Source: a virus. From it: a stretch of 28,704 nt of DNA. Below the pieces are notes generated by a model that saw nothing but the letters and a program-made list of their open reading frames with translations, was not told the origin of the DNA and did no database searches. Below are positions 1-19,730 of the stretch, piece by piece. Position 1 is the first letter of the stretch. Each line of letters starts with the position of its first letter. The position numbers and the translations under genes are program-made. The DNA lies in IMG/VR virus record IMGVR_UViG_3300035179_000053, positions 1 to 28,704 of that record; one strand, given 5' to 3'.

Positions 1-492
1 GATATGGAAAGTAAGGTAGCAGCGTATAAGGAGAGAGGGGTGTGCCACTTTGCAGCGGATTCCCTTACTGGGTTACAATGGTATGTTTTACACGGAGAGG
101 TCAACCTTGCAGGACATACAGGGAAAGGAACCAGCCAATATACTTATGGGTTGGCTATTGAGAAGATCAGAGAGATTGTAGATGTCTGCTGTCACATCCC
201 TTTTGATTTCATCCTTACTACCCATGTTGAGTCAGAGAAGGATGAGATTGTTGGGAAGATTCAGGAGACCATCTTACTCTATGGGAAGAAACTTCCTGGG
301 ATCGTATTAAGTATGATCGATGACATCTACTATGTTTCAGTGTCAACGATGACAGGGAAGAAGGAATATTGGTTTGAGACTTCTCCGCAGATGTTCTTGA
401 AGATCATCAGGCAGAGATCGTTTGATGACCTGCCAATCAAGATCAAACCAAACTTTGCAGAGATTTACAGAGGTCAAATGTCCTGTGAGTGA
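1..492 (+). CDS. Sak4-like phage recombination ATPase, C-terminal part (5' end outside window)
   Basis: The reading frame is open to the left edge, so this is the C-terminal part of a larger protein; the ATG at 4 is probably internal. The sequence CHFAADSLTGL near the left edge looks like the Walker B strand of a RecA/AAA-type phage ATPase. It is followed by a helix, a strand ILTTHVE (the sensor region) and the pattern GKKLPGIVLSMIDDIYYV, which is typical of the last third of Sak4-like ATPases (AAA_24 type). Such proteins load with a single-strand-binding protein in phage single-strand annealing recombination. The SSB-like gene at 841 supports this. The Walker A part is outside the window, so the family is inferred from the C-terminal pattern only. 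Confidence 0.65.
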   Translation, partial: DMESKVAAYKERGVCHFAADSLTGLQWYVLHGEVNLAGHTGKGTSQYTYGLAIEKIREIVDVCCHIPFDFILTTHVESEKDEIVGKIQETILLYGKKLPGIVLSMIDDIYYVSVSTMTGKKEYWFETSPQMFLKIIRQRSFDDLPIKIKPNFAEIYRGQMSCE

Positions 493-508
493 AGGGAGGT
501 GAGGAAGG

Positions 509-649
509 ATGAAGAGAACAGAAGCCTTAGAATATTGGCAGAAGCTCCTTGAAGGCTATCAGGATGCAATCGAGGAGGAGGAGAAGAAGTTGGAGAGCTT
601 AAGGAAGGAAGAGAGACACATCAAAGGGGAGATGGAGAAGCTGAGATGA
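509..649 (+). CDS. small coiled-coil protein, 46 aa
   Basis: The ORF starts with ATG behind a strong ribosome site (GGGAGGTGAGGAAGG, 493-508) and encodes 46 residues. The middle is almost all Glu, Lys, Leu and Arg in a heptad-like spacing, so a single charged alpha-helix or coiled coil is expected. It sits between the Sak4-like gene and the next small gene with short gaps, as part of the same operon. I do not recognise a family and no function can be stated. Confidence 0.55.
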   Translation: MKRTEALEYWQKLLEGYQDAIEEEEKKLESLRKEERHIKGEMEKLR

Positions 650-665
650 GAAAGGAGGTGACCTT

Positions 666-872
666 GTGAGTGAGTTTGAGTGCAGCAATGGACACTTCCC
701 AGCACCCTCAACCATTGTAAGAAACAAATGTCCCTGTGGTGCTCCCATCATCAGAATGGATGGGAAATCATCAGGGCAGTTGAGGGCTGAGGAGAAAGAT
801 GAGTTTGAAAAATCTGAAAGAGAAAAGGAGGAAAGAGAATATGTGCCCAATAGACATCGGAATAGGGTTTGA
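666..872 (+). CDS. small protein with Cys-rich knuckle, 68 aa
   Basis: The start is GTG, chosen because AAAGGAGGTGACC lies directly upstream (651-663). The N-terminal half has a CSNGH...CPCG arrangement, compatible with one zinc-binding knuckle, and the C-terminal half is highly charged (Glu/Lys/Arg). The last 32 nt overlap the start of the SSB-like gene in another frame, and the ribosome site of that gene lies inside this one. It is a plausible operon member of unknown function. Confidence 0.55.
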   Translation: MSEFECSNGHFPAPSTIVRNKCPCGAPIIRMDGKSSGQLRAEEKDEFEKSEREKEEREYVPNRHRNRV

Positions 873-1311
873 AGATTTGGAGAAGTTAGCAAGGCCACCG
901 TTGGTTCCTGATGGAACCTATGAAACGGTGATTGATAAGGTTGATGATTCACCTGTCCAACAGTCAGGAAGACCTCAGTGGAAATTTACCTTAAGGATCA
1001 TAAACAGACCTGACCTTGAAGTAAAGGGGAATCGCAATCTGTTCGTATATGCACAACTACCGTGGATTGATCCTGATACCAAACAGTGGGATTATACAGC
1101 CACATTCACCATCGTCAATATAATCAGTGGAACGGGGATGCAGATCCAAGGAACACAGCTTCCTGATAAGGAGGTATTTCAGGGGAGACCATTGGTGGTA
1201 AAGGTTGATCAGGTAACCCGAAAGGGAACAGAGAATGATCCTGAACCCATCAAGGACAATCGTGTCAGAATTATTACAAAGAAGAGAGGTGGAGGAGGAA
1301 TGGTCAGCTAA
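841..1311 (+). CDS. putative single-strand DNA-binding protein (DUF669-like)
   Basis: The protein has 156 aa. The ATG at 841 is preferred over an upstream ATG at 799 because AAAAGGAGGAAAGAG lies just before it. The sequence begins with an acidic helix, then LVPDGTYETVIDKVDDSPVQQSG and PQWKFTLRI, a beta-rich start like that of OB-fold phage proteins (the DUF669/SSB-like group) encoded beside Sak4 ATPases. The C-terminus is basic (RVRIITKKRGGGG) rather than the acidic tail of bacterial SSB. Role inferred: coating single-stranded DNA for the recombinase and polymerase. The assignment rests on pattern and neighbourhood. Confidence 0.5.
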   Translation: MCPIDIGIGFEDLEKLARPPLVPDGTYETVIDKVDDSPVQQSGRPQWKFTLRIINRPDLEVKGNRNLFVYAQLPWIDPDTKQWDYTATFTIVNIISGTGMQIQGTQLPDKEVFQGRPLVVKVDQVTRKGTENDPEPIKDNRVRIITKKRGGGGMVS

Positions 1312-1327
1312 GGTCGAAGTTCGACCT
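1311..1327. repeat. 6-5-6 hairpin motif, copy 1
   Basis: AGGTCG, a 5-nt spacer (AAGTT) and CGACCT form a perfect 6-bp inverted repeat that starts at the last base of the SSB-like stop codon and is followed by ATACTCAG. As DNA it can also be read as a near-perfect 17-bp palindrome with 8-bp arms. The same stem with the same spacing occurs at 11075 and, with one wobble pair, at 27857. No T-run follows, so it is not a Rho-independent terminator. Confidence 0.6.
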
Positions 1328-1344
1328 ATACTCAGTATAAATTA

Positions 1345-1452
1345 CTGTCTCGTGTGGTGTTCTGGTGAAAACACTTGAGGCAACGAGACTATGGAGAGCT
1401 GCATCAGGACTACTGCCATAGCAAAGAAGGTTCGAATCCTTCAACGAGACAG
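1345..1452 (+). ncRNA. tRNA-like element without a canonical anticodon arm
   Basis: The ends pair over 9 bp (1345-1353 with 1444-1452). A D-arm-like hairpin with GG in the loop occupies 1357-1374. A textbook T arm occupies 1426-1442: stem GAAGG/CCTTC, loop TTCGAAT. Between D and T arms there are 51 nt instead of about 22. They hold a hairpin (CTATGG 1389-1394 with CCATAG 1416-1421) with a 21-nt loop, and no 5-7-5 anticodon arm could be found. The 9-nt CAACGAGAC occurs twice (1381, 1442), so the 5' strand GTCTCG can pair with either copy. No CCA is encoded. It could be a decayed tRNA, a tRNA mimic, or a tRNA with an insertion. Confidence 0.4.
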
Positions 1453-1459
1453 CCTTAAC

Positions 1460-1870
1460 TTGAGAGAGATTAACAGAGAGACCACTTTAACTTTCAACGT
1501 AACTTCAGCATTTAAAGGAGGAACTAACTCTATGAAAGACGAACAGATCGTTGCCAAGAGTAAGGGGCAACCAGATCAGAAAGGAACATGCAAGCAAGCA
1601 GACACCTGGGCAGATTGCCAGAAACTCGCTGGGGGAGAGAAGGAGGCTCTTGCAGTTTTCAATGCCCAGTGGAAGACAAATGCAATCAATAAGTTGAGAA
1701 AACCTGCTACAGGTGCTCTGTCAATTGGAAAGATGATCATCGCTGCAAAGGCTACTGGGAAGCTCACGCCAGAACTGCAAGCAAGACTCGCAGAGACTCT
1801 CAAGAAGGCTGGTGTAGAGATTCCAGAAGGCATTCTGTAAACAATTTAGCTCTCTCTGTTGGTCTCTCAA
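1460..1870. repeat. imperfect ~20-nt inverted repeat flanking a small gene
   Basis: The left arm at about 1460-1483 (TTGAGAGAGATTAACAGAGA) and the reverse complement of about 1849-1870 (TTGAGAGACCAACAGAGAGA) align over about 20 nt with a 2-nt gap and two mismatches. The arms flank the 102-aa gene at 1532-1840. Both are GA/CT-rich, which is common in this genome, so chance similarity is possible. Confidence 0.35.
1532..1840 (+). CDS. hypothetical protein, 102 aa
   Basis: The ATG at 1532 follows AAAGGAGGAACTAACTCT. An upstream ATG at 1391 in frame is rejected because it would translate the tRNA-like element. The product is hydrophilic and Lys/Ala-rich with two cysteines (CKQADTWADC) near residues 20-29. 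Its C-terminal half (KLTPELQARLAETLKKAGVEIP) looks like two short amphipathic helices. A gap of 220 bases holding the hairpin repeat and the tRNA-like element precedes it, so it may have its own transcript. No family recognised. Confidence 0.65.
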   Translation: MKDEQIVAKSKGQPDQKGTCKQADTWADCQKLAGGEKEALAVFNAQWKTNAINKLRKPATGALSIGKMIIAAKATGKLTPELQARLAETLKKAGVEIPEGIL

Positions 1871-1892
1871 TTTTATTATAAAGGAGGTTGAG

Positions 1893-2078
1893 ATGAAAAT
1901 TGATTCCATTACGCCTGGCTGTGTTATTCTCCATCCAGAGACCATTGAGGAAACTGGGGTAATGCAATGGTTATCTGTAAGGTTTTTAGGACAGCATGTT
2001 TCCCTTGATTTTGTAACACACTATATTGGAGATGGTAAAACTCTATACCCAGCTTTTTGGATTCGGAAAGAAGGATAA
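1893..2078 (+). CDS. hypothetical protein, 61 aa
   Basis: ATG is preceded by AAAGGAGGTTGAG at optimal spacing. The short product (MKIDSITPGCVILHPETI...) looks beta-rich and mixed hydrophobic, without signal peptide or membrane segment. Its stop (2076-2078) is one base from the next start, so translation of the two is probably coupled. Family not recognised. Confidence 0.6.
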   Translation: MKIDSITPGCVILHPETIEETGVMQWLSVRFLGQHVSLDFVTHYIGDGKTLYPAFWIRKEG

Positions 2079-2079
2079 G

Positions 2080-2478
2080 ATGGGTGATGCCAGAAGAAGA
2101 AAAATTTGGGATGAAGCAGTTGCTCTAACAATAGCAGATTGGAAGGAGGTTAATCCTATAATGGAACTTAAAATAATCTTCATCGGTGGTCTTATCCTTA
2201 TTGGGCAGTATGAAGATGAGATTTTACAGAAACCAAGAGTTGTAATTTCAGGTCAAGATTCTCAGGGGAGAGAAGTGATGGGGCTTAAAGCTCTCGTAGG
2301 AACCCCTGATAAGATTGAGCAGCTCAACCCTGCTTTAAGACATCTAATGTATGATGTAAAAGATGAAAGTCTTATCAACCTTTACATCCAAGCTACAACA
2401 GGGATAGTTCCTGCAAGGGATCTCAGTAATGTGAGACCAATTAAAGGTGGGAATAATCCAGGAGGGGTAGTAGCATGA
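2080..2478 (+). CDS. hypothetical phage protein with Sm-like N-terminal strands
   Basis: Two starts are possible. ATG 2080 lies one base after the previous stop with AAGGA just upstream (132 aa). ATG 2161 has the stronger site GGAAGGAGGT ten bases upstream and would give 105 aa. The part after 2161 reads MELKIIFIGGLILIGQYEDE...KPRVV, a pattern of short beta strands resembling small Sm-like phage proteins of unknown role. The C-terminus is glycine-rich. The stop overlaps the next ATG (ATGA). Function unknown. Confidence 0.6.
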   Translation: MGDARRRKIWDEAVALTIADWKEVNPIMELKIIFIGGLILIGQYEDEILQKPRVVISGQDSQGREVMGLKALVGTPDKIEQLNPALRHLMYDVKDESLINLYIQATTGIVPARDLSNVRPIKGGNNPGGVVA

Positions 2479-2801
2479 AAGTCTATATTACTGGTCCTTA
2501 CACAAAAGGGGATGTTGCCTGTAATGTCAAGAGGGTGATTGAAGTTGCAGATAAAATCGCCAACCTTGGGCATATTCCATTCGTTCCACATCTCTTTCAT
2601 TTCTGGCATCTTTTTCATCATCATCCAAAAGAGTTCTGGATGAAGATGGATCTTAAATGGCTTAGCTGTTGTGATGTTTTATTTCTCTTAGCTGGTGAAA
2701 GTGAGGGAGCAATCACAGAGTGTAAATTTGCTTTGGAGAATGGAATCGAGATTGTAACATCAATTGAGGCATTAAAATTTATTAGTAGGATAGGAGGGTA
2801 A
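2475..2801 (+). CDS. DUF4406 / nucleoside 2-deoxyribosyltransferase-like protein
   Basis: The 108-aa product opens with MKVYITGPYTKGDV, the typical start of DUF4406 proteins, which share the fold of nucleoside 2-deoxyribosyltransferases. Further landmarks are HIPFVPHLFHFWH, DLKWLSCCDVLFLLAGESEGA (the region that in the enzyme family carries the catalytic acid and substrate loop) and a closing IEIVTSIEAL strand. Length matches the family. Many phages carry such a protein, presumably acting on nucleotides or nucleotide signals; the true substrate is not known. It is translationally coupled to the preceding gene through ATGA. Confidence 0.75.
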   Translation: MKVYITGPYTKGDVACNVKRVIEVADKIANLGHIPFVPHLFHFWHLFHHHPKEFWMKMDLKWLSCCDVLFLLAGESEGAITECKFALENGIEIVTSIEALKFISRIGG

Positions 2802-2802
2802 G

Positions 2803-3141
2803 ATGAGTGAAGAACAAACACCAAAGAAAACTGAATTAAGTTATCATCTTCTTATCTGGATTATTTGTATTTTTATTTCTGGTGTCTCTGCTGGCTTCGT
2901 TGGTGGCATTACTATTGGAAAGCAGAAACAGATGATTACAGAAACCATTGACACCCACATCAATCTCATCATGCCAAAGAATGAGAAAGAGTTAAGAAAA
3001 CAAACCCTCTTTAATGCCTGCCAGCAAACTATGATCAATGAGATTGCTAAGTGGGAGCTCTTTAAGCAAACCACTCCTCCTCAAACACCTCCAGCAAAGG
3101 TTGAACCTAAAGGAGGGGCCAAGCGTGACAGACAAAATTAA
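2803..3141 (+). CDS. small single-pass membrane protein, 112 aa
   Basis: ATG 2803 follows GATAGGAGGGTAAG. After about 14 polar residues comes one long hydrophobic stretch (residues about 15-40, LLIWIICIFISGVSAGFVGG), so one transmembrane helix is expected. It is followed by a hydrophilic, partly helical segment and a Pro/Lys-rich tail. This could be an accessory membrane protein of the phage. The C-terminal 17 nt overlap the methyltransferase start. No lysis partner is visible, so no holin or spanin call is made. Confidence 0.6.
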   Translation: MSEEQTPKKTELSYHLLIWIICIFISGVSAGFVGGITIGKQKQMITETIDTHINLIMPKNEKELRKQTLFNACQQTMINEIAKWELFKQTTPPQTPPAKVEPKGGAKRDRQN

Positions 3142-4480
3142 GATCTCAGACATCATCATCGACCCAGATCGCAGACGAAAGACCTTTGATGAGAAGAAAC
3201 ATCAAGAGTTGATTAATTCGATTAAAGAGGTTGGTCTCATTGAACCATTAATTCTTGAAAAGAGAGATGATGGAATATATCTTCTTGTTGGTGAAAGACG
3301 ACTTCGAGCACTCAAAGAGATTGGTAAAGAAGAATTAACTGAGAAAGAGTATATTCTCAAAGAAAACCTTGATCTTTGGCAGAGACTTGCTATTGAGATC
3401 TATGAGAACATCCACAGAGAAGACTTAACCTGGCAGGAAAAGGTTGAAGGAGAGCTTCAACTTCATGAACTCTATCAAGAAAAATTCGGAACGACAAGAG
3501 AGCGAATTGGTAACATCACATGGACAGGGAAGAAGTCTGGAGGATGGAGGACACAGGATACTGCTGAACTCCTTGGTGAGGGGCTTGGGACGATCAGAGA
3601 GCATCTCCAACTTGCAAAGGCTCTCAGACTCGACCCAGAGTTGGGAAAGAAAGAGACGAAGGAAGCTGCAATAAGAGCAATGAAGGTTGGGTTTGAGTTG
3701 GGGTTTATGAGGGACATTGCAGGGATATTTGCTGAGGCAAGGTTGGAAAGTGGGGAGGAACCTATTCAGATCATTAAAGGAGACTCCCTCATTGAACTGC
3801 CAAAGTTTCCAGATGAGAGTTTCAACTTCTGCATCACCGACCCTCCTTATGGGATTGGGATTCATGATATGCAGGAGACCTTCCCAAACAGAGGGGAGGT
3901 TAGGCAGGGGATGGAATTTAATGATGAGAAGAAGGTATTGGAGAATGTAATCAAACCAGTTATGAGGGAGGTGTATAGGGTGTTGGTACAGGGATCACAC
4001 TGCTATGTTTTCTTTGCCATTGCTCGTTATACTGAGGTGAGAGCATTGTTAGAAGAAGTTGGGTTCTGGGTATGCCCAACTCCCCTCCTATGGATCAAGA
4101 ACAATGCTCTCAACCTTAGACCTCACATCTCCTATCCTGTCAATTATGAGCCAATCTTTTATTGTAGTAAGGGGTATCCACCTCGTCCCCTTTCTACCAT
4201 TCAGGCACTCTCAACGTTTGAGCATCCAATCCTTTCAGGGCAGACAAAGGTTCATCCAACAGAGAAGCCTCTTACCATCATTAAGAAACTGATTGAGAAT
4301 TGCTCACAAGTGAAGGAGAGAGGGATTGATCCCTTTCTTGGGGGAGGGACTTTCACCCTTGCCTGTAAACAATTAGACAGGTTGGCAGTTGGGGTAGAGA
4401 TTGATGATGTATGGTGGTTGGAGAGTAAGAAGAAACTTGAGGGGGGGATGATGGCAAGGATCAATCAAATATTTGGTTAG
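3125..4480 (+). CDS. ParB-nuclease-like domain fused to DNA methyltransferase (beta class)
   Basis: The GTG start at 3125 has AAAGGAGGGG seven bases upstream; an ATG at 3038 in frame lies inside the preceding gene. The protein has 451 aa. Residues about 4-105 form a ParB N-terminal domain, with DPDRRRKTFDE, the hydrophobic VGLIEPLIL and the GERRLRAL box (56-63). A helical linker follows. Residues about 213-440 are a SAM-dependent amino-methyltransferase with catalytic DPPYG (239-243), HPTEKP (377-382) and the SAM-binding motif DPFLGGGTF (402-410). Motif IV precedes motif I, which is the beta-class order. It likely methylates adenine N6 or cytosine N4 in phage DNA, either for protection from restriction or for regulation. 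No cognate endonuclease is seen. Confidence 0.85.
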   Translation: MTDKIKISDIIIDPDRRRKTFDEKKHQELINSIKEVGLIEPLILEKRDDGIYLLVGERRLRALKEIGKEELTEKEYILKENLDLWQRLAIEIYENIHREDLTWQEKVEGELQLHELYQEKFGTTRERIGNITWTGKKSGGWRTQDTAELLGEGLGTIREHLQLAKALRLDPELGKKETKEAAIRAMKVGFELGFMRDIAGIFAEARLESGEEPIQIIKGDSLIELPKFPDESFNFCITDPPYGIGIHDMQETFPNRGEVRQGMEFNDEKKVLENVIKPVMREVYRVLVQGSHCYVFFAIARYTEVRALLEEVGFWVCPTPLLWIKNNALNLRPHISYPVNYEPIFYCSKGYPPRPLSTIQALSTFEHPILSGQTKVHPTEKPLTIIKKLIENCSQVKERGIDPFLGGGTFTLACKQLDRLAVGVEIDDVWWLESKKKLEGGMMARINQIFG

Positions 4481-4509
4481 ATTAAATAAAGGAAAGGAGG
4501 TGAATCCAG

Positions 4510-4713
4510 ATGAAAATTTCATATCATTGCGTTTGTGGAGCAACTCTCAATGTTGAAGGTGATCCATTTGCGGAATCAACTGACAAAGTCGTTGTCTTAG
4601 TTGATGAATTTAAACAACAGCACGCTCAATGTCTCTCTAAGACTTGGGAAGAACGAGACTTCTATCGAAATCGACCTATCACAGGTGTTGCAGGGGAAGC
4701 GATAGAAGAATGA
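4510..4713 (+). CDS. small protein with CxCG/HxxC zinc-binding pattern, 67 aa
   Basis: ATG 4510 follows GGAAAGGAGGTGAATCCAG. Residues 7-10 are CVCG, and a later HAQC around residue 38-41 could complete one zinc site. The pattern matches small zinc-ribbon-like phage proteins. The C-terminus is acidic, and the stop overlaps the next ATG. Function unknown. Confidence 0.6.
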   Translation: MKISYHCVCGATLNVEGDPFAESTDKVVVLVDEFKQQHAQCLSKTWEERDFYRNRPITGVAGEAIEE

Positions 4714-4877
4714 ACTCCTACTATCGATTCTGCTTTATGGAATGGTCTTGCTGTGGTCTAATCTGGCAACTCCAAATGTGGAGGGGACAGCCAGGGAGAA
4801 GAGATTGGGCTCCAAGTTGCCCTCTCTGTGAGGAGGAAGGGAAAAGTTTTAATCAAATTTATGGAGGTAGAAAATGA
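4710..4877 (+). CDS. small cysteine-rich protein, 55 aa
   Basis: The start is coupled to the previous gene by ATGA (ATG at 4710). The 55-residue product has FCFMEWSCCGL and SCPLCEEEG, that is, two Cys pairs about 30 residues apart, fitting a zinc ribbon. There is no strong ribosome site, as expected for a coupled start. It is the last ordinary operon gene before the cassette-like region begins at 4925. Confidence 0.5.
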   Translation: MNSYYRFCFMEWSCCGLIWQLQMWRGQPGRRDWAPSCPLCEEEGKSFNQIYGGRK

Positions 4878-4921
4878 CAGGCACCGACTTAGAAGCACGA
4901 AAACAGAGACTGGAAAAGTAA
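4874..4921 (+). CDS. possible 15-codon mini-ORF or gene remnant
   Basis: ATG 4874 overlaps the previous stop (ATGA) and has a good site, TGGAGGTAGAAA. Only 15 charged residues follow (MTGTDLEARKQRLEK) before TAA. It ends four bases before the first attC-like box, so it could be the stump of a gene cut by cassette insertion. Expression is unproven. Confidence 0.25.
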   Translation: MTGTDLEARKQRLEK

Positions 4922-4924
4922 GCC

Positions 4925-5017
4925 TTACAACGCTTGAACTACGCAGCGGCGAAAGGAGTTGATATGCTAAACAGAGACGAAGAAGTTGAAAGGATTTTCT
5001 TGAGTGATTTGTTAGAC
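4925..5017. other. attC-like site 1 (weak centre)
   Basis: The left end TTACAAC-GCTTGA-ACTACGC (4925-4944) matches the left end of site 3 at 14 of 18 positions. The right end CTTGAGT-GATTT-GTTAGAC (4999-5017) matches the right ends of sites 2 and 3. The inner arms pair poorly. The left core box has no reverse-complement partner upstream, so this may be a hybrid or decayed site. An open frame from ATG 4964 runs through it. Confidence 0.45.
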
Positions 5018-5152
5018 GGAGGATTTATGTTATTTTACTCTTTTATTTGGCAAGCTCAAACTTCAACAGAAGGTGTCTATATTTTTCATAGAAATAAATG
5101 CGAAGTTATTGGGCACAAAGAAATTTGTTGGGATTTTTGTTATTCCGTCTAA
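4964..5152 (+). CDS. cassette gene 1, hypothetical protein (62 aa, or 41 aa from ATG 5027)
   Basis: Two starts compete. ATG 4964 has AAAGGAGTTGAT upstream but lies inside the attC-like site. ATG 5027 has GGAGG at 5018-5022 directly after the GTTAGAC core box, the position used in the other two cassettes, and gives 41 aa. The shared C-terminal part is aromatic and contains three cysteines (NKCEVIGHKEICWDFCYSV). The stop codon forms part of the closing box GTCTAAC. It resembles the small unknown proteins often found in integron cassettes; no family recognised. Confidence 0.5.
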   Translation: MLNRDEEVERIFLSDLLDGGFMLFYSFIWQAQTSTEGVYIFHRNKCEVIGHKEICWDFCYSV

Positions 5153-5229
5153 CCATTGATTAACAAACCATTTTGCCCTGATAAGGGGATATTCAGGCGA
5201 TGGGATTTATCTTGAGTGATTGGTTATAT
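5147..5229. other. attC-like site 2
   Basis: GTCTAAC (a perfect RYYYAAC core box) with spacer CATTGA begins the site, and CTTGAGT-GATTG-GTTATAT ends it. TAACCA (5150-5155) pairs with TGGTTA (5221-5226). AAACCAT (5165-5171) pairs with 5200-5208 with two bulges, and CCCT/AGGG form a terminal hairpin at 5176-5187. The inner L arms pair only partly, so it is a weaker site than site 3. Confidence 0.5.
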
Positions 5230-5249
5230 TTCTACTTCAGGAGGATGAA

Positions 5250-5480
5250 ATGGATTTAGAGTATGAATTATCAAATATCATTGATTCATCGTGGCATTAT
5301 AGTTGGCATTGGCCCAGAGATCAATATGGATATCTTACCTTAGATGGCTGGAGAAAGGCTTTAATTGATGGCAATGGATTACTTGCCCATTTTGAACAAA
5401 GAATAGCAGAACTCAAAAAGATTCTTCCATTAATCGAGGAGGAAATTAAAAAGAGAGCAAATTGGGAAGCGGAAATATAA
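5250..5480 (+). CDS. cassette gene 2, hypothetical protein, 76 aa
   Basis: ATG 5250 has CAGGAGGATGAA upstream, 12 bases past the opening core box. The product starts with a Trp-rich acidic part (SSWHYSWHWPRDQYGYLTLDGWRKAL) and ends in a helix of charged heptads (FEQRIAELKKILPLIEEEIKKR), a probable coiled coil. The TAA stop lies in the closing core box ATATAAC, as in integron cassettes. No family recognised, and no toxin/antitoxin pair is apparent. Confidence 0.65.
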   Translation: MDLEYELSNIIDSSWHYSWHWPRDQYGYLTLDGWRKALIDGNGLLAHFEQRIAELKKILPLIEEEIKKRANWEAEI

Positions 5481-5558
5481 CGACTGAACTAAGCCGCCGT
5501 CTACTGTGGATGGAATAGCAACTGACTATCCACGGTCGGCTTGAGTAATTTGTTATGC
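5475..5558. other. attC-like site 3 (full architecture)
   Basis: Read on the plus strand: core box ATATAAC (5475-5481), 6-nt spacer, arm ACTAAGCCG (5488-5496), 6 unpaired bases (5497-5502), stem ACTGTGGAT (5503-5511), loop, stem ATCCACGGT (5528-5536), arm CGGCTTGAGT (5537-5546), 5-nt spacer and core box GTTATGC (5552-5558). The two arms pair over 9 bp with exactly one extra base, G5543. This reproduces the known attC parts (R'', L'', unpaired spacer, variable terminal stem, L', R' and an extrahelical base). The extra base and the 6/5 spacers are arranged as in a classical attC read on the minus strand. Confidence 0.7.
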
Positions 5559-5573
5559 GAAGGAGGTGATAGC

Positions 5574-5714
5574 ATGAATTATCAAGAATTGTGTGAAAAA
5601 ATAGATTCACCAACGCTTCAAAGAGATCTCCAGTATTTTGAACAAACAGGGGAATATCCAGGTGGATACAATGCCGAAGAAAGGGCATTGATGGAAGAAT
5701 ATCTTTTCGCATAA
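5574..5714 (+). CDS. cassette gene 3, hypothetical protein, 46 aa
   Basis: ATG 5574 has GAAGGAGGTGATAGC upstream, beginning right after the core box GTTATGC. The 46-residue acidic product (MNYQELCEKIDSPTLQRDLQ...) seems to form two short helices and ends within the closing box GCATAAC, which supplies its TAA stop. No family recognised. It belongs to the cassette array. Confidence 0.6.
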   Translation: MNYQELCEKIDSPTLQRDLQYFEQTGEYPGGYNAEERALMEEYLFA

Positions 5715-5742
5715 CAAGAGATATACGGATTCAGGCGGTGAA
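5709..5742. other. partial attC-like site 4
   Basis: GCATAAC (5709-5715) is the exact reverse complement of the opening box of cassette 3. ATTCAGGCGGTG shortly after (5729-5740) matches ATTCAGGCGATG inside site 2. The usual right end (CTTGAGT...GTTA) is missing; a shorter match, GATTTATTTGGTCAC, runs into the next gene. This fits a site truncated when the array joined the DUF2284-like gene. Confidence 0.4.
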
Positions 5743-6258
5743 ATGAAAGATTTATTTGGTCACGATAAAGTCGAAGAAGCGATTAAACTTACTAAAGTGG
5801 TTTACGACATAAGGGCGAGAGATGGAATGTGGTGTAAACTGCCATATCCTGGTCATCCGAAGGGTTGTCCAAACTTTCCGGCCTGCCCTGCAACATATTT
5901 CGATTTTCTTGATAGCTCTAAAGTGTGGACTCATTGGTATGCAGTAATCGAAGAATTTGATTTGGTCGGTCATAAAAAAAAGATGAAACAACTCCATCCA
6001 CTATGGACAGATCGGCAATGCAGAAATCCTTTATATTGGCAGAACGGAGTAAGGAGTAAACTTAATAAAAAAGCTCTTGCCGTTTATAAGCATGGAGATA
6101 CAATTTTGGAGATCCCTGAAGCCTGTGGGATCAATGTCTTTGAAACGATGGCAAAAGTCGGAATCAATATTGAAAGGTATCCCGATATAGTTCGTAAAAT
6201 TATGCTGATTGGAAAAACAAGTACGGGGGGAAGGATTAAATATGAGGGTAACTTGTGA
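5743..6258 (+). CDS. cysteine-rich DUF2284-like metal-binding protein
   Basis: The protein has 171 aa. Residues 31-49 carry C-KLPYPGHPKGCPNFPACPA, a Cys-rich motif I associate with DUF2284-type putative metal-binding proteins. Further cysteines at about 93 (RQCRNPLYWQ) and 128 (EACGINVFETM) could complete an iron-sulfur or zinc site. Related proteins are frequent in phages from environmental data; their function is unknown. The ribosome site is weak (GGCGGTGAA) and the start lies against the truncated attC-like site, so the native N-terminus may have been changed. The end overlaps the next gene by 17 nt. Confidence 0.6.
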   Translation: MKDLFGHDKVEEAIKLTKVVYDIRARDGMWCKLPYPGHPKGCPNFPACPATYFDFLDSSKVWTHWYAVIEEFDLVGHKKKMKQLHPLWTDRQCRNPLYWQNGVRSKLNKKALAVYKHGDTILEIPEACGINVFETMAKVGINIERYPDIVRKIMLIGKTSTGGRIKYEGNL

Positions 6259-6468: not shown

Positions 6469-6759
6469 ATGACAGACCAAGAGAGATGGGAAAAAGAAGC
6501 AAGAAAGGTTTTTGTAACAGATCGCAAGACTCCTGAAGAGAGCTGTTATTGGGGGCCGTTTCTAAATGGTTATGTTGCTGGATGTCTAAAGAGGCAGGAG
6601 GAAATTAAGGAATGTTGGTATTGCAAGAATAATTTCCCGCTTCAATATTATTCTGGCTATGGATGGTTTCACTATCTTCCAGACGGCGGACCTGATATAA
6701 AATGCACAAATCCAGAAATAAAACAAAGACCAAATCCTGAAGATGAGGAGGCAAAATGA
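6469..6759 (+). CDS. hypothetical protein with Cys pairs, 96 aa
   Basis: ATG follows AAAAGGAGGATTGAG. The N-terminal 25 residues are a charged helix (QERWEKEARKVF). A CWYCKNNF knuckle sits near the middle, with other cysteines at SCYWGPFLNGY, GCLK and IKCTNP, so a metal site is possible. The tail is acidic. The stop overlaps the next ATG. No family recognised. Confidence 0.6.
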   Translation: MTDQERWEKEARKVFVTDRKTPEESCYWGPFLNGYVAGCLKRQEEIKECWYCKNNFPLQYYSGYGWFHYLPDGGPDIKCTNPEIKQRPNPEDEEAK

Positions 6760-7025
6760 GCAAGATCAAGGGAGTGAAGAATGAGTTTGAGGAATTGTGG
6801 GACCATGAACACCCGTCAGGAGTGCATCCTGAAGGTTGCCTTTGTCAAGCTTGTGAGTGGGAAAATGAGGAAAAGCCAGAAGCAAAACGTTGGTATCTCC
6901 AAGGCCGTCGAAAGGGGCAGGAGGAAATCGAGAGGTTGAATGAAGAGCTGAAAGAATTGAGAGAGTTAAAGCAAGCCCTTGAACATTATGGAGAACTGAA
7001 ATATGTTGGAGGAAAGTTAAAATGA
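6756..7025 (+). CDS. hypothetical protein, CxxC plus coiled coil, 89 aa
   Basis: Coupled by ATGA at both ends to its neighbours. Residues about 18-34 contain H-x-H-P-S-G-VHPEGCLCQAC, a His/Cys-rich potential metal site. Residues about 50-80 are a Glu/Leu/Arg-rich coiled coil (EEIERLNEELKELRELKQAL). It belongs to a run of four overlapping small genes (6469-7878) with related coiled-coil parts. Function unknown. Confidence 0.6.
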   Translation: MSKIKGVKNEFEELWDHEHPSGVHPEGCLCQACEWENEEKPEAKRWYLQGRRKGQEEIERLNEELKELRELKQALEHYGELKYVGGKLK

Positions 7026-8376: not shown

Positions 8377-10746
8377 ATGATAGACAATATAAGAGTTGTA
8401 AAAGGATGCGGGCCACAGCGACCTAAGTTGATCCTTATTGGGGAAGCACCTGGAGAGGAAGAGGCGAATCAAGGCATCCCATTTGTTGGTCCCTCAGGTC
8501 ACATCCAAGATGGAATTCTCTCTTCAGCAGGTTTACTAAGACAGAATTGTTTTCTCGATAATGTTATCCCAATCAGACCTCCTTTCAATAAGTTGGAGAG
8601 ATTGTCTGAGCTGGGAGCAACAGTTGAGATGTTTATCCCCAACCTCTCTCGTACCCTTCAAGAGATTGATTGCCCAGTCATCGTTGCTTATGGTGATGTC
8701 GCGATGTGGTATCTGACAGGGATGGGAGAGGTAAGTAAGAAGGGAGAGATCTCAGGAGTGTCTAAACACAGAGGCTCCATCTATCCCTGCATTCTCGATC
8801 CACGCAAACTGGTTGTCCCAACCTTTCATCCCAGGTTTGTGATCGAGAATTGGAAGATGAGAGGGGTAGTCGTGGAAGATATTAAGAAGGCGATAAGGGT
8901 TGGGAAAGGAGGAAGGAAGGATGTCAGGTTCAATACTATTATTAGACCAACTTTACAAGAGGTTGAGGAAAAGATCCAAATCCTATCACGATGTAATATG
9001 ATCTCCCTCGACATCGAGGTGGTTGGAAGTGGACAGATTGCTTGTGTTGGAGTTGGTTCGGTTGGCTCTGATGTGGATGAGAGATGGTCTATCTGCATCC
9101 CTTTCAAATTTGGATACAACAATTATTGGTCAGAGCAAGAAGAGTTCTACATCTGGGAACTCCTCCGACAACTTCTTAGAGGTGACCAACTTAAGATCGG
9201 CCAAAACCTAAACTACGATTTCACCAAACTTCTCCCTTTTATTGGAGAACCATCTCCACCATGGTATGATCTCATGGTTGCCTACCACCTGTTAGAGCCT
9301 GAACTCCCTCACACCCTTGCTTTTATGACCTCGATCTATACAGATGTCAATTACTATAAGGATGATCCCAAAGACGAAGAGAAAAGTTGGAAGTACACCA
9401 CATCAAGTGAGCGACTCTGGGAATATAATGGCAAGGATGTAGAAATTCCTCTCATCCTTGAACCAATCCTAACGAAAGAGTTAAAAGAGATGGGAATGCT
9501 CTCTCGCTTTTATGGGTTTGACATGCCAAAGATGAGGGTGATGTGGAGGGTACAGCAAAGAGGGATTCTTGTAGATGATGAGAAGAGAGTAGAGTTATTG
9601 GTAAGGGAAGTAGGGGAGGTTAAAACCTTAAAAGCACAACTTAAATCCTATGTTGGCTATGATCTAAATCCACTCTCCAACAAGCAAATGATCAAATTTC
9701 TTTATCAAGATTTAAAACTTCCTGTTTATCACAATAGAAAGACCAAAAAACCAACCGCAGATGAAGAGACACTGAACAAACTCATTGCAAGATACCCTCG
9801 ACCAGAATTATATTTAGCCTTAGATATCAGGGGTAAGGTTAAACGCATGGGAACCTATCTCGCTTCAAAAGATTCTGATGGTGAATATACACTACCAAAG
9901 GCAGATCCTGATGGGAGGATCAGAAGTAGATATAATGTCTGTGGAACAGATACAGATAGGAGTTCAGCCAGCAAAACTTATGATAACACAGGACTTGATC
10001 TTCAAAATATCCCAGAAGACCTTCGAGAGATGTTTCTTGCAGGGGAAGGAAAGGTTTTACTCGTTTTAGATTTATGGCAGGCTGAGATTTATGTTGCGGC
10101 TGTACTCTCTAACTGTACAGCTTTATTGGATAAGCTGAGAAAAGGTGAAAAAGTTCACAAGATGGTTGCAAGTTGGATATTTAATAAATCAGAATCTGAG
10201 ATTGATAATAATAACAAACCTGGAGGAGAATATTATACAGGTAAAAGAGTAACTCATGCTAAGACTAATGGATTGCAGCCAGCAATGCTTGCTGTAATGA
10301 CCAAAAAGTCAATCAAAGAGGCAGAAGAGTTACTTAGAAGATATGATATGTTTGCCCCAGAGATGGAGATGTGGCATCAACAGATTGTTGAGGAGCTGCA
10401 AAGAACTCGAATCCTTATCGATCCTTTTGGAGGAAAGAGATTGTTCCGATCTTATAGAGGGATGAAAGATACTGAGACACCAAAGAAAGCATTTGCACAT
10501 CTTCCCCAAAGGACAATTGCAACATACAATCATTTGGCAATTATCAAATTAGAATACCTTCTTCCTAAAGGATGTGAGATTATTCAGGAAGGATTTGATT
10601 CAATGATCATAGAGGTAAAAGAAGAATCACTTAAAGAGATTGAACCTTTGGTAAAATTAGCTTTTGACAAAGAATTGATATGGAAGGGAGAGAGGTTTAA
10701 GATCCCAGTAAAGGAGGCAGGAAGGGGGAAGAGATGGCAAAAATAA
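8377..10746 (+). CDS. uracil-DNA glycosylase-like domain fused to DNA polymerase I (family A)
   Basis: The protein has 789 aa. Residues about 10-175 are a type 4/5 uracil-DNA-glycosylase-like domain: IGEAPGEEE (21-29), GIPFVGPSG (33-41) and the late motif TFHPRF (149-154). Residues about 205-370 are a DEDD 3'-5' exonuclease with LDIEV (211-215), NLNYD (277-281) and NGKDVEI (351-357). Residues about 385-789 are the polymerase. Motif A is LDLWQAEIY (D565) instead of the usual DYSQIELR, motif B is GKRVTHAKTNGL (622-633), and motif C is GFDSMIIEV (D741) where VHDE is usual. The two catalytic Asp are kept. It is the likely replicative polymerase. UDG-polymerase fusions occur in other phages. Confidence 0.85.
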   Translation: MIDNIRVVKGCGPQRPKLILIGEAPGEEEANQGIPFVGPSGHIQDGILSSAGLLRQNCFLDNVIPIRPPFNKLERLSELGATVEMFIPNLSRTLQEIDCPVIVAYGDVAMWYLTGMGEVSKKGEISGVSKHRGSIYPCILDPRKLVVPTFHPRFVIENWKMRGVVVEDIKKAIRVGKGGRKDVRFNTIIRPTLQEVEEKIQILSRCNMISLDIEVVGSGQIACVGVGSVGSDVDERWSICIPFKFGYNNYWSEQEEFYIWELLRQLLRGDQLKIGQNLNYDFTKLLPFIGEPSPPWYDLMVAYHLLEPELPHTLAFMTSIYTDVNYYKDDPKDEEKSWKYTTSSERLWEYNGKDVEIPLILEPILTKELKEMGMLSRFYGFDMPKMRVMWRVQQRGILVDDEKRVELLVREVGEVKTLKAQLKSYVGYDLNPLSNKQMIKFLYQDLKLPVYHNRKTKKPTADEETLNKLIARYPRPELYLALDIRGKVKRMGTYLASKDSDGEYTLPKADPDGRIRSRYNVCGTDTDRSSASKTYDNTGLDLQNIPEDLREMFLAGEGKVLLVLDLWQAEIYVAAVLSNCTALLDKLRKGEKVHKMVASWIFNKSESEIDNNNKPGGEYYTGKRVTHAKTNGLQPAMLAVMTKKSIKEAEELLRRYDMFAPEMEMWHQQIVEELQRTRILIDPFGGKRLFRSYRGMKDTETPKKAFAHLPQRTIATYNHLAIIKLEYLLPKGCEIIQEGFDSMIIEVKEESLKEIEPLVKLAFDKELIWKGERFKIPVKEAGRGKRWQK

Positions 10747-10928
10747 GTATGATAGATCTGGATGTTTTAGAAGATATGTTGTTAAAACTTTTTTATCGCC
10801 AAAAAGCTGCTTATCTTATGGGAGGTCCAGGTAGAGTTGCTACTGGAGTTTTTGTTGCAACAATACAAGCTTTAATAGATTTAAAGAGACTTCAGGAAGG
10901 AGGTGGAAGAAGTAAGGGTAAAACTTAA
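10734..10928 (+). CDS. hypothetical protein, 64 aa
   Basis: ATG 10734 lies inside the polymerase end (overlap 13 nt) with GGAAGGGGGAAGAG upstream. The product is mainly helical with hydrophobic stretches (DMLLKLFYRQKAAYLMGG; VFVATIQALIDL) and a basic Gly/Lys tail. It is too polar for a clear membrane segment. It is coupled to replication genes; function unknown. Confidence 0.55.
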   Translation: MAKISMIDLDVLEDMLLKLFYRQKAAYLMGGPGRVATGVFVATIQALIDLKRLQEGGGRSKGKT

Positions 10929-11070
10929 AGGAAATATAATATTACATACACATCCTATCATGGAAAGAAAACTCAAAGTCCCAGATGGTCATGTTATTAT
11001 AGATACTGAAGCATTTTTTGAAGTATTTAAAATAGTTGATGAGACAAAAAACGAGAAAAAGATTGAATAA
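10903..11070 (+). CDS. small hypothetical protein, 55 aa (GTG start)
   Basis: An open frame of 55 codons from GTG 10903 overlaps the previous gene by 26 nt and ends just before the second hairpin repeat. AGGAAGG lies a few bases upstream. An ATG at 10960 would leave 36 aa but has no ribosome site. The sequence is regular and beta-rich (RVKLKGNIILHTHP, KVPDGHVIIDTEAFFEVF), without low-complexity signs. No family recognised. Confidence 0.5.
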   Translation: MEEVRVKLKGNIILHTHPIMERKLKVPDGHVIIDTEAFFEVFKIVDETKNEKKIE

Positions 11071-11074
11071 GTTA

Positions 11075-13985: not shown

Positions 13986-14873
13986 TTACACCTCCATTAT
14001 ATTCCATGAGATGCAATTCATCAGCCCACCCTCAAATGAAAGATGGGAGCAATCAATTGCAACAATATTGTAATGTGGATAGAGAAATTTCATCTTCCTC
14101 ACTACATCAAAGTCTTTTTTGATTCCCATCGTAGGAAGAAGGATTACCCCTCTTACCAATAAGAAATTGATATAATACCCAAATCCTGGGTTGAAATCGT
14201 CAGCGAAAGGATATTGCTTACGAAACTCTTTCTCTGACATATTCCAATCCCAGTCACCATAGGCAAAGGGAAGAGTCTCAATTTCAAACCCCTTCTTAGA
14301 GAGAAGCTTTCTAAGTTTCTCATCATACTCAATGAACTTCTTGTCCTTTTCAAAGATGCTTGAATAGTCATTGATGAGGATGGTCTTCTCATCCATAAAC
14401 TTAACAATCCCATCTGAGTGACCAAGATTGTCTCCAGGTTCGATTGGGAGGAGGATTATCTCTGAGTCAAGAAGGGATGAAAGTTTGTGAATAATTGCAC
14501 GAGGTTTCACCCTTACGTTATCTCTAAGCACTTTCTCTGTGATGAAGGTCTTTCCAAATCCTCTTACAACGTTACCACCATCTAAGATAATTGGTGAGAT
14601 AATAGAGGGAACAGCAAATCCATCCCAACAAGATATCTTTGGGGGCTTTCGATGTTCAAAGTTGGAATCGGCATAGATGAATTTCACAAAGTGGTCACCC
14701 ACCTGAATTGGCAGATAATCTCGACACCAAATGTTTTCTATTCCTTTGATCAGTTTAACCTTAATCCCATTTGATTCAAGGTTAGTCTTTGCTGGGAGAA
14801 ACACCTCTGGATAGCGAGAGGGGAGGGTCTCAGCAAAATAAACGATGGTGGTTAACCTATCGTCAAATTCCAT
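13986..14873 (-). CDS. agmatine/peptidyl-arginine deiminase-like pentein enzyme
   Basis: The protein has 295 aa. The order and identity of active-site motifs fit the agmatine deiminase/Porphyromonas-type PAD family: WCRDYLP (49-55), DGGN (98-101), GHSDG (151-155) with the catalytic His, and EGGLMNC (281-287) with Cys 287 as nucleophile. Family members hydrolyse guanidino groups, for example agmatine to N-carbamoylputrescine and ammonia. It is shorter than typical cellular members (about 340-370 aa). It lacks a signal peptide and its start overlaps the decarboxylase-like gene by 11 nt. Such a gene in a virion operon is unusual. The substrate cannot be told from the sequence. Confidence 0.75.
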   Translation of the reverse strand: MEFDDRLTTIVYFAETLPSRYPEVFLPAKTNLESNGIKVKLIKGIENIWCRDYLPIQVGDHFVKFIYADSNFEHRKPPKISCWDGFAVPSIISPIILDGGNVVRGFGKTFITEKVLRDNVRVKPRAIIHKLSSLLDSEIILLPIEPGDNLGHSDGIVKFMDEKTILINDYSSIFEKDKKFIEYDEKLRKLLSKKGFEIETLPFAYGDWDWNMSEKEFRKQYPFADDFNPGFGYYINFLLVRGVILLPTMGIKKDFDVVRKMKFLYPHYNIVAIDCSHLSFEGGLMNCISWNIMEV

Positions 14874-15585
14874 TTATTCTTACCAACCTATCCTTTCCTG
14901 CTTCAACATGATAGAGAAGGCAGTTATTAAGGAGAGATTCAAATTGCAGTTTAGGGTTGATAAAGGGGATAATAAGGTCAACCTGACTTCCCATCCTGAC
15001 CACACTAAACCTTTCTCCCTGTGTGTAATAATCATCAGAGTCTCCAAAGTGAGCGATGACATCCACCTCGAAGTCAGCGATTTGTAAGATGTAATAAGGT
15101 TGTTTGAGATTGGGGGCATAGATACGATTCTTAACTCTCTCATTGAAGAGCATATACTCCATGTGCGAATAATCAAGATTGAGCCTCTTTAGGATATCCT
15201 TTTCAACCTCCCTCATTGAGAGGTTAGCTACCTTTAAAGGAGGGAGTTTTGTGTGTTTGATGAAGCCATTAGTAGGGATGCGATTGATGTGAACGTCAAG
15301 AGCGGTCATGAAGATGCCAATGATCAAACATGGGTACTTCATGGTCTCTTGCATGAGGGTTTCAATAGTATAATTCATCCCTTTAACTTCGATCATGTTC
15401 TCTTTAGGGTGAACAACCTTAGCATAGACGATTACACCATCTGCAGGGGAGAGGAAGGTAGACTGGTCATGGTAGATTGATCGGTTGGGATCACGATTGA
15501 AATCAACCTCGTAGAGTTTGAGAGGGAGCTCTCTCTTAATTTGCTGTGTTTCAGATTGTTGGAGAAAGTCTTGTAAAGGTAGCAT
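14863..15585 (-). CDS. phosphatidylserine decarboxylase-like pyruvoyl enzyme
   Basis: ATG 15585 (240 aa) follows the previous stop by one base; a TTG at 15594 would add three residues. SPADG (46-50), the strand/loop FMTALDVHINRIPTNG (92-107), FNERVKNRI (147-155) and GERFSVVRMGSQVDLIIP (190-207) match the short PSD subfamily. There the Gly-Ser (199-200) is the self-cleavage site that makes the pyruvoyl group. The Asp of SPADG and the His of DVH are kept, so it should be an active proenzyme. Known members decarboxylate phosphatidyl- or archaetidylserine. In this setting, between two guanidino enzymes, another substrate is possible. No membrane anchor is seen. Confidence 0.75.
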   Translation of the reverse strand: MLPLQDFLQQSETQQIKRELPLKLYEVDFNRDPNRSIYHDQSTFLSPADGVIVYAKVVHPKENMIEVKGMNYTIETLMQETMKYPCLIIGIFMTALDVHINRIPTNGFIKHTKLPPLKVANLSMREVEKDILKRLNLDYSHMEYMLFNERVKNRIYAPNLKQPYYILQIADFEVDVIAHFGDSDDYYTQGERFSVVRMGSQVDLIIPFINPKLQFESLLNNCLLYHVEAGKDRLVRINGI

Positions 15586-15586
15586 A

Positions 15587-16480
15587 TCAATCAAAAAAGT
15601 TCGTATAGTTAAGGTGAAATATACAACAGCTTAAAGCTGCACCAGATTTATACATCTCTGATAGGTTGATAAAGATCAACTCCAACCCAGCAGCTCTACA
15701 AATCTGTTCTAATTTCTCATCCTTATCCTTCTCAAATGGGTATTCCTCATCAGATAGTTTCATCTCTTTGATCCCTGTAGCTGAATACACAATGGAGCCA
15801 ACTCTCAGATTATTTGTAATGGAGAATTGAGCCTGCTTCTTAGTCACAGGGATAAGCTCAGCAATCTGTTCCATCTCCCTTAACTGTGGATCTTTCACCA
15901 GATTTTCATTAAAGATGATCTTTGTATTAGAAAGGGGGAAGATGTTACAGTCAAGATGGTAGGTGAGGGGGTCGGTCTCTTCAATCTTGATAATTCTTGC
16001 ACCAAAGTTAGCTTCGATCCATTCTAAAGCTTTGAGATGTGTCCTAATCCCATACCCTCCAATGTAGATGTTGTCTCTCACCCACTTTAACTCTGCCTCT
16101 CCTTCAAAGAAGAAAGGAGGCTTGAAGGTTGCATATCCCATCTTTGAGATAAACCAAGCTAACTCATCTTCCTCCCCAGGTCGTCCTTCAGCTTTGAAAT
16201 TTGCAAGGATGACAGTCTTTTCAAGATGCGGGAGACACATCCCTGCATTTGTGATGTAAACTTGGTCTTGCAAACCATTCTTCGGTGGGAGGAGATAAAC
16301 CATAGCATCCTGACTGAATAAGCTATACATAAGGTGAAATTGAGAGACAGCTTTATCACGGTTGACCTGCCTCTCCTCTGGAGACATCTTCTTCATCCAA
16401 CGGTTGTTGATGATCTCCGTTGAGAGAAAGGTTGGAGGACAGAGAAGGAGTTCAAGATGGGAGTCAGCAGGGTAGATCAT
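15587..16480 (-). CDS. amidinotransferase/DDAH-like pentein enzyme
   Basis: The protein has 297 aa. Motifs in order are DQVYITNAGM (72-81), FEGEAELKW (125-133), GYGIRTH (142-148), YHLDCNIFPL (174-183) with catalytic His, and SGAALSCCIF (279-288) with the nucleophile Cys at 285 or 286. This is the layout of the amidinotransferase/dimethylarginine dimethylaminohydrolase/arginine deiminase group, which attack the guanidino carbon of arginine derivatives. Hydrolase or transferase activity cannot be decided. It is coupled to the upstream virion gene by ATGA and overlaps the decarboxylase-like frame when that starts at TTG. Confidence 0.75.
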   Translation of the reverse strand: MIYPADSHLELLLCPPTFLSTEIINNRWMKKMSPEERQVNRDKAVSQFHLMYSLFSQDAMVYLLPPKNGLQDQVYITNAGMCLPHLEKTVILANFKAEGRPGEEDELAWFISKMGYATFKPPFFFEGEAELKWVRDNIYIGGYGIRTHLKALEWIEANFGARIIKIEETDPLTYHLDCNIFPLSNTKIIFNENLVKDPQLREMEQIAELIPVTKKQAQFSITNNLRVGSIVYSATGIKEMKLSDEEYPFEKDKDEKLEQICRAAGLELIFINLSEMYKSGAALSCCIFHLNYTNFFD

Positions 16481-18681: not shown

Positions 18682-19719
18682 TTATATTCCTCCACCTTGC
18701 TTTAACATCCACTCAGCAAGAGCTTTTGGATCGTTGAGGTTGATTCCTCCAGCTACACCAGCAGATTCAACACCAACAGGAGGTGGGATTCTTGGCCCAG
18801 GTGGGGGTGGAGGAGTTACAGGAGGTTGAGGAACTCGATTGAAGATTCGTCTCTCAATCTCAGAAAGGGTTGAGGGAGAAAGAGGAGGCTTCTCTGTAAG
18901 GATTGCTTTTGAAAGGATGTCATCAGGGTGTCTCGCAACAAATTCAGAGACAACCTTTGCTTCCTCTTTGGCATAGTTTGGGATGAGACGAACCATCGCT
19001 TTGTTATAGGGACCTCGTGGAGTTGGGGTTGGAGTTTTAGGCATAGGAGCTGAAATAGGTTCTCTTCCTCCTCGTAGTTCTCTTATCCTTCCTTTAAGAG
19101 CCTCTCTCTTTGCTGCTTCCTCACCCATTACTCTTGCATTGAAAGCTTCAGCAGTCTCCTCACCAGCCTTTGCAATTCCTGGAGGTCTAATCCTTTCTCC
19201 TATTCTTCCAATTCCTTTTACTGTTTTCTCTCCAAGTTTATATCCAACCTTCCCTAATCCCCAGAGAAATGGGTCTGACCAAAGAGATGATCCTGGAACC
19301 TTTTCAATCTCTTCTGGGAGTTCTGTTGCTTTTCTCCTTCCAATAAAATAGTCACGGATCTGTGCTGGCATCCTTGAGAGTCTCTGTGGGATTGTCCCTT
19401 CACCAGTTCCAACCTCTTTTATCCCTCCCCAGAGAATCTCCTTTGGAACTCCCCATCCTCTCTCCCAAGATGTTCCCATCCTTTCTTTAAACTCAGGCCA
19501 GGGTGGGAAGAATGCACCTTCTTCTGCAGGTGGTTGAGGAAGATCAGAATAAGCTTCCTTAATTAACTGTTGGAAAAGTTTCTCATCTCGAGGATTTCCA
19601 GAAGCAATCATTCTCTTTCTCACCCATCCTTCTCGAAATTCTGCTTGTTCTTCTGGTGAGAATCCTTTCCAATCAGGATCATTACGAATAGGATCAAAGG
19701 TATTTGGAAGTCCTGGCAT
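18682..19719 (-). CDS. putative internal virion protein, Pro-rich, 345 aa
   Basis: ATG 19719 is chosen because AAGGAGAACTAAA lies upstream; an ATG at 19749 in frame would contain that site. The N-terminal 70 residues are acidic and helical (DPDWKGFSPEEQAEFREGW), the middle is glycine-rich and basic, and residues about 215-330 are rich in proline (TPTPTPRGP; PPVTPPPPPGPRIPPP). The last 15 residues form a short helix (DPKALAEWMLKQGGG). The pattern fits disordered ejection or scaffold-like proteins in podoviruses. No family recognised. It abuts the large internal protein gene. Confidence 0.55.
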   Translation of the reverse strand: MPGLPNTFDPIRNDPDWKGFSPEEQAEFREGWVRKRMIASGNPRDEKLFQQLIKEAYSDLPQPPAEEGAFFPPWPEFKERMGTSWERGWGVPKEILWGGIKEVGTGEGTIPQRLSRMPAQIRDYFIGRRKATELPEEIEKVPGSSLWSDPFLWGLGKVGYKLGEKTVKGIGRIGERIRPPGIAKAGEETAEAFNARVMGEEAAKREALKGRIRELRGGREPISAPMPKTPTPTPRGPYNKAMVRLIPNYAKEEAKVVSEFVARHPDDILSKAILTEKPPLSPSTLSEIERRIFNRVPQPPVTPPPPPGPRIPPPVGVESAGVAGGINLNDPKALAEWMLKQGGGI

Positions 19720-19730
19720 TTTAGTTCTCC

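Follow-up and report, generated by a model that had tools for sequence, protein, structure and literature searches.

Small gene cassettes bounded by attC-type sites are mobile in tailed phages, where units of a site and a gene are gained, lost and swapped at AAC/GTT boxes. Relative to attC, the genes of these phages have the reverse of the usual orientation, with the site lying upstream of the gene. Clusters of attC sites without an integrase (CALINs, defined here as at least two attC sites by model and no integrase) were already known in virulent phages, namely Tetrasphaera phage TJE1, Polaribacter phage P12002L and Pseudoalteromonas phage H101 (Qi et al. 2023, PMC9892861), as isolated cases. 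The inverted polarity and the demonstrated turnover of arrays are new. Mobility is concluded from gain or loss between sister genomes, from the occurrence of one cassette in an unrelated phage and from differing arrays on near-identical flanks.

Boxes, cassettes and attC sites in the window

The window, that is, the whole stretch of 28,704 bp that was analysed (record G000), comes from a virus. The initial annotation had described three small open reading frames, each enclosed by an exact 10-nt inverted GTT/AAC pair. All three pairs were confirmed (5011–5020/5144–5153, 5223–5232/5472–5481 and 5552–5561/5706–5715); they are arranged head to tail within 705 nt, and each encloses one small open reading frame. 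Just one further 10-nt pair less than 600 nt apart was found in the whole window (18022/18298), and first-order Markov sequences gave a mean of 0.33 pairs per window with a maximum of 3 in 100 trials. The right ends described as CTTGAGT-rATTk-GTTA (4999, 5211 and 5540) are likewise all present, and each of the three cassette reading frames ends with TAA inside its own closing box. They start only a few bases past the opening box, and a Shine-Dalgarno-like GGAGG precedes each start (ATG 5027, ATG 5250 and ATG 5574). The features of the region are:

3038 to 4480, plus strand: left flank gene just upstream of the array, a ParB N-terminal domain fused to an N6/N4 DNA methylase (Pfam/PHROGs), same direction as the cassettes
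4922 to 5017, minus strand: degenerate attC-like site upstream of cassette 1, 11.5 bits with model R1
5011 to 5153, plus strand: cassette 1, exact 10-nt inverted ends GTTAGACGGA...TCCGTCTAAC
5147 to 5229, minus strand: degenerate attC-like site, 12.9 bits with R1, with the D element CATTGATTAACAAACCATTTTGCCCTGATAA after the AAC box
5223 to 5481, plus strand: cassette 2, ends GTTATATTTC...GAAATATAAC, reading frame 5250 to 5480 (76 aa)
5475 to 5558, minus strand: full attC site, GCATAAC-AAATTACTCAAGCCGA...CGGCTTAGTTCAGTC-GTTATAT, with both extrahelical positions, canonical top strand on the minus strand
5552 to 5715, plus strand: cassette 3, ends GTTATGCGAA...TTCGCATAAC, reading frame 5574 to 5714 (46 aa)
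5709 to 5716, no strand: array end and recombination point, the BLAST break (5715/5711) against the twin genome G001 at the AAC box closing cassette 3
5743 to 6258, plus strand: right flank gene, a phage gene of 171 aa without a family (Pfam/PHROGs), same direction as the cassettes

None of the three cassette proteins matched a family in Pfam or PHROGs. Cassette 2 has a DNA relative in G011 (21749–21940, 71%), and among viral contigs relatives of its protein were found only in the twin genome. One relative (locus L005, flank gene 52% identical) was too distant to say anything about the array and was set aside.

For the attC sites, a covariance model (R1) was built from an alignment (A1) of 22 rows, comprising short sites of other phages together with the aadA1 and TJE1 attC, without the window and without its twin, and with the R and L stems set by hand. 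In A1, 91% of the cells pair, and both partners change in 10 of the 18 pairs. Its covariation score of 0.419 exceeds that of shuffles (0.143) and that of slid structures (0.08 at most). The two extrahelical positions described for attC are found on one arm (columns 16 and 23), of which column 23 is an invariant A (22/22 rows), and the aadA1 attC can be aligned with the phage sites. The core GTTA/TAAC is present in 22 of 22 model sites. The strict RRRY of the box consensus RYYYAAC...GTTRRRY is fitted by GTTAGAC alone; the others read GTTATAT and GTTATGC.

With the calibrated model, site 5475–5558 scored 53.6 bits on minus (E 6.3e-12) as against 12.1 bits on plus. The claim that this site has all attC parts held, and the proposed check with an attC model, carried out in surrogate form with our own covariance model, was passed. 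The E value of the other two sites is about 1, and the L''/L' stem with extrahelical bases, present in 5475–5558, is not found in them. This corrects the initial picture, in that one strong site stands beside two weak ones. In addition, the right arm of site 4922–5017 is also coding (LSDLL) in a longer reading frame of cassette 1, since an in-frame start at ATG 4964 precedes ATG 5027 (both with the stop at 5152); the same is seen in G002 and G009. Downstream of cassette 3, the R box alone remains. As two of the three sites are degenerate, it is possible that the array is partly frozen.

Over 62 loci, R1 found 114 sites, and it matched two TJE1 attC candidates absent from training; the TJE1 sites scored 50, 34 and 30 bits. 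Bacterial attC reached 47–49 bits among the 62 loci and up to 57 bits in 148 genomes of one phylum. Two bacterial metagenome-assembled genomes recruited by the same L-box pattern carry integron integrases above the family cut-off. An Rfam scan of the window gave nothing at the gathering score and no attC match. Folding of the single DNA strands, also proposed initially, was run and did not separate the strands: the window sites fold no better on minus than on plus, only site 3 is unusually stable, and site 2 is no more stable than shuffles.

Gain, loss and exchange of cassettes between phages

The twin genome, G001 (IMGVR_UViG_3300032046_000031; 57,107 bp), is near-identical to the window and is regarded as a complete permuted genome because of a 127-bp direct terminal repeat. 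Positions 1–5715 of the window correspond to 49657–55370 of G001 at 99.9% identity, and from position 5711 onward the match resumes at 55619 (BLAST). After CATAAC, G001 carries one extra cassette of 253 bp with a reading frame of 63 aa; the extra unit consists of a 41-bp attC GTAGAAATCAGCGGGAGCATAGCGATCCGCTGGATTGATTG and the cassette GTTATATGGA...TCCATATAAC, and its attC scored 59.8 bits (R1; L073, 1690–1744), one of two strong sites in G001 (49.9 and 59.8 bits). One unit of a gene and an attC has therefore been gained or lost exactly at the box. The sequences joined at the break share only ATAAC, which is too short for ordinary homologous recombination to be sufficient.

Other segments replaced between the two genomes lie off attC boxes (window 6586–7015, 10743–11072, 19571–20465 and 22913–23943). 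Several HNH and LAGLIDADG endonucleases encoded in G001 might drive these replacements.

Cassette 1 together with its upstream site (4929–5159) is 95.7% identical to positions 2969–3199 of G002. This phage of 66 kb has another terminase and in other respects resembles the window little. The common unit spans AAC to AAC, that is, a site and the gene downstream of it, and the counterpart of site 4922–5017 in G002 (2965–3057) scored 23.0 bits.

Site-pattern searches recruited further phages (G027, G030, G033, G187 and G188). In sister phages of the G033 type, flanks of 12–15 kb are 99.5–99.9% identical, yet the arrays differ. G187 and G033 share a left flank of 12.4 kb at 99.9% and a right flank of 12.9 kb at 99.8%, and of these two phages one has two cassettes and the other has six; G188 and G033 share a right flank of 15.6 kb at 99.7% with a different array. 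Units are freely recombined: I, D1 or N can stand before the right flank, and K, F or M after unit J. Such sister genomes amount to a natural experiment, in which whole arrays turn over in otherwise near-identical phages. The phage identity of the groups compared is established by matches to terminase, portal and major head proteins for G001 and G033, and to terminase for G002. Seven junctions lie at the AAC box in the compared phages, and two lie at the GTT side:

AAC box: window against G001; G027 against G030, left; G027, G187 and G188 against G033, right
AAC box, continued: right ends of units F, D1 and M; G188 after unit J
GTT side: J-K against J-F (G030 against G033 after J); first unit of G187 against G033

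Copies of one unit are not always identical in the first nucleotides past AAC. These variable bases and the GTT-side junctions suggest that ordinary recombination inside the repeated sites probably adds to the shuffling.

The alignment of related phages proposed initially was thus passed in surrogate form, as cassettes come and go at the boxes, and together with the attC model match it means that the integron-type cassette reading largely held. Two alternatives had been offered, entry of an attC cluster into a phage genome or a phage lineage that exchanges small accessory genes. The latter accounts better for the data than a single entry would, since site types and some of the cassettes are common to several tailed phages that are unrelated to one another.

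Some minor observations were made on individual units. The site before gene J shows a compensatory change from AGAGG/CCTCT to AGTGG/CCACT (L122, 127–170, against L125), the gene being nearly identical, which looks as if sites might evolve or be replaced separately from the gene. A cassette in G004 (L091, 3588–3730) consists of an extended, almost perfect inverted repeat that resembles a tRNA, but none was called there by ARAGORN. The D element, at 5151–5184 in the window, is conserved; in several phages it comes directly after an AAC box and marks the right border of the array (L116, L122, L125, L196, L197 and L046). Its spacing resembles a weak promoter, and this idea was dropped after a promoter scan gave no more sites than shuffles.

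Gene polarity of the phage cassettes

In integrons, bottom-strand selectivity has been stated to give cassette genes the orientation needed for expression from the Pc promoter (PMC8946536, PMC11023631). In the window, the L-box asymmetry is opposite to the gene direction, as the canonical attC top strand is the minus strand; the top strand of the model is antisense to the genes in most of the other phage arrays too. Both this inversion relative to the genes and the decay of two of the three sites had been missed in the initial annotation.

Polarity was assigned by calling the gene on the 5' side of each site. Calls from the length of ATG-only reading frames go wrong for cassettes whose genes begin with another start codon (G007) and were therefore supplemented by a second rule and by homology; the second rule in turn miscalls TJE1, whose gene stops inside the attC. 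Folding energy was left out of the calls because single-strand folding fails to separate the strands. Of 38 callable phage sites, 33 were reversed and 5 usual, whereas only 2 of 31 bacterial sites were reversed and 29 usual (Fisher p 4e-12). This value overstates independence, with several sites per contig and sister contigs among them; when contigs are counted instead of sites, reversed polarity is seen in about 14 phage records, and three to five are usual or mixed. The direction is backed by homology for cassettes encoding an N6/N4 methylase, a C5 methylase, MT-A70, a PAPS-reductase-like protein, DUF5131 and a radical SAM protein. Arrays of the usual polarity also occur in viral contigs (G005 and G038). 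In the family of the window, the genes are reversed and do not have the attC at their 3' end.

The strand preferred by the model, the extrahelical bases and most junctions indicate that the coding strand of the phage cassettes corresponds to the recombinogenic bottom strand of attC, and the junctions in sister genomes are consistent with recombination by IntI on that folded strand. Reversed polarity predicts junctions at the AAC side, because AA|C on the plus strand is G|TT on the minus strand. The inversion breaks a rule thought to follow from the strand choice of the integrase.

The phage arrays resemble the known phage CALINs in that small genes and DNA methylases are bounded by attC in lytic phages without an integrase, and one model recognises both. 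They are unlike TJE1, in which genes and attC run in the usual direction, in being reversed across many phages. The authors of PMC9892861 note 'divergent directions' in P12002L only, and one site of that phage is reversed relative to its methylase genes; the sections consulted contain no comparison of cassette gain and loss between sister phages. No report of inverted phage cassettes was found in the open-access literature searched. With bacterial chromosomal and mobile class 1 integrons, the arrays share R and L boxes, both extrahelical bases, cassette-specific complementarity and one-gene cassettes; they differ in the lack of intI, in that no attI was found, and in the opposite gene polarity. 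As in phage hot spots (morons, homing-endonuclease swaps), small accessory genes vary at one locus between sisters, but exchange takes place at short defined boxes with foldable sites. G001 also carries HNH/LAGLIDADG endonucleases and indels without attC involvement.

Recombinase, proposed mechanism and alternatives

The statement that no integrase is in view held, including the complete 57-kb sister genome. No tyrosine recombinase (PF00589) was found in the window, in complete G001, in G002, in G011 or in most other array contigs, and no match to the integron integrase family (TIGR02249) above its cut-off was obtained in the window or complete G001. Of 25 families inspected from a Pfam search of 73 reading frames of G001, none was an integrase or a transposase; they included homing-type HNH/LAGLIDADG endonucleases, an exonuclease and AAA_24. 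In two array contigs, one with reversed and one with usual polarity, an Xer-like tyrosine recombinase is encoded at a distance of about 0.5 kb from the array; neither comes close to the cut-off for integron integrases:

L204, 2345 to 3385, minus strand: Xer-like recombinase in G032
L115, 2051 to 2980, plus strand: Xer-like recombinase in G038

These genes might be a phage-supplied enzyme or plain lysogeny integrases.

As complete G001 has no tyrosine recombinase, the enzyme must either be supplied in trans or have escaped recognition. The initial suggestion of a host integron integrase remains the leading inference and has not been demonstrated. TJE1 attC sites recombined with IntI1 (PMC9892861). 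The phage could not be assigned to a host, its closest phage polymerases being less than 30% identical.

In the explanation we favour, and consider likely as a whole, the region 4922–5715 is a short cassette array of integron type that lacks an integrase and lies in the early region of a tailed phage of lytic type. Its units each consist of a small promoterless-looking gene and an attC hairpin, the site and its downstream gene travelling together. The plus strand is inferred to become single-stranded during phage replication and then to fold, and an IntI-type tyrosine recombinase, for which the host is the likeliest source, would cut at AA|C (G|TT on minus), so that circular cassettes may be moved between phages or between phage and host. 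Captured genes would be expressed by read-through from the rightward transcription of the phage, an inference from flanking genes of the same direction, and because of this read-through only genes in the reversed orientation would be useful in a phage array.

A wider reading is that tailed phages keep their own pool of inverted-gene cassettes, which circulates among unrelated phages with the integrase provided in trans; we lean slightly against it on present evidence. If it were true, the inversion would keep these phage cassettes silent in a host integron, and host cassettes silent in phage arrays, and the two pools would thereby be partly isolated. The inverted polarity raises questions that can be tested: by which strand and by which recombinase phage cassettes are moved, and whether phage and bacterial cassette pools are separate.

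Among the alternatives to a host integrase, it is possible, though less likely, that the phages encode, or are helped by, an attC recombinase of their own that was not recognised. Site types common to unrelated phages, the polarity unlike that of bacteria and the two Xer-like genes near arrays speak for it. Against it, no such gene is present in complete G001 or most array contigs, both Xer-like matches fall far short of the cut-off, and phage attC of TJE1 work with IntI1.

Single-strand annealing or homologous recombination of the phage at short repeats, with the hairpins serving as homology and not as integrase targets, is unlikely to be the whole explanation. The exonuclease, PD-(D/E)XK nuclease and AAA_24 protein of G001 would suit it, many sites share 20–40 identical bases, and some exchanges fall within a site (H in G187 against G027; J-K against J-F). 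However, the sites joined at most junctions have nothing in common except about 5 bases at the AAC box (window/G001; G027/G030; F, D1 and M at their right ends). Homologous recombination would not need the strong covariation or the conserved extrahelical bases.

A fossil array, in which cassettes from a single capture out of a host integron have become fixed and sister differences are due to deletions, is very unlikely. The two degenerate sites and the missing terminal site in the window would agree with it, but sisters with 99.5–99.9% identical flanks differ in genes and order, with gains as well as losses, and bacterial cassettes have the opposite gene polarity. Chance inverted repeats or ordinary intergenic hairpins and terminators, for which it can only be said that about 0.3 10-nt GTT/AAC pairs per window are expected, are all but excluded by the 53.6-bit site, the covariation and the gain of a cassette at the box, and are refuted by the sister-genome comparison.

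Under the favoured integron-type explanation, the cargo is of interest, as it includes DNA methylases and other modification genes, and phages may assemble anti-restriction genes by integron-style shuffling. Elsewhere in the window, an operon on the minus strand (13986–16480) encodes a PAD_porph-type arginine/agmatine deiminase, a phosphatidylserine decarboxylase and a DDAH-like enzyme, and such genes of lipid and arginine metabolism are unusual for a phage.
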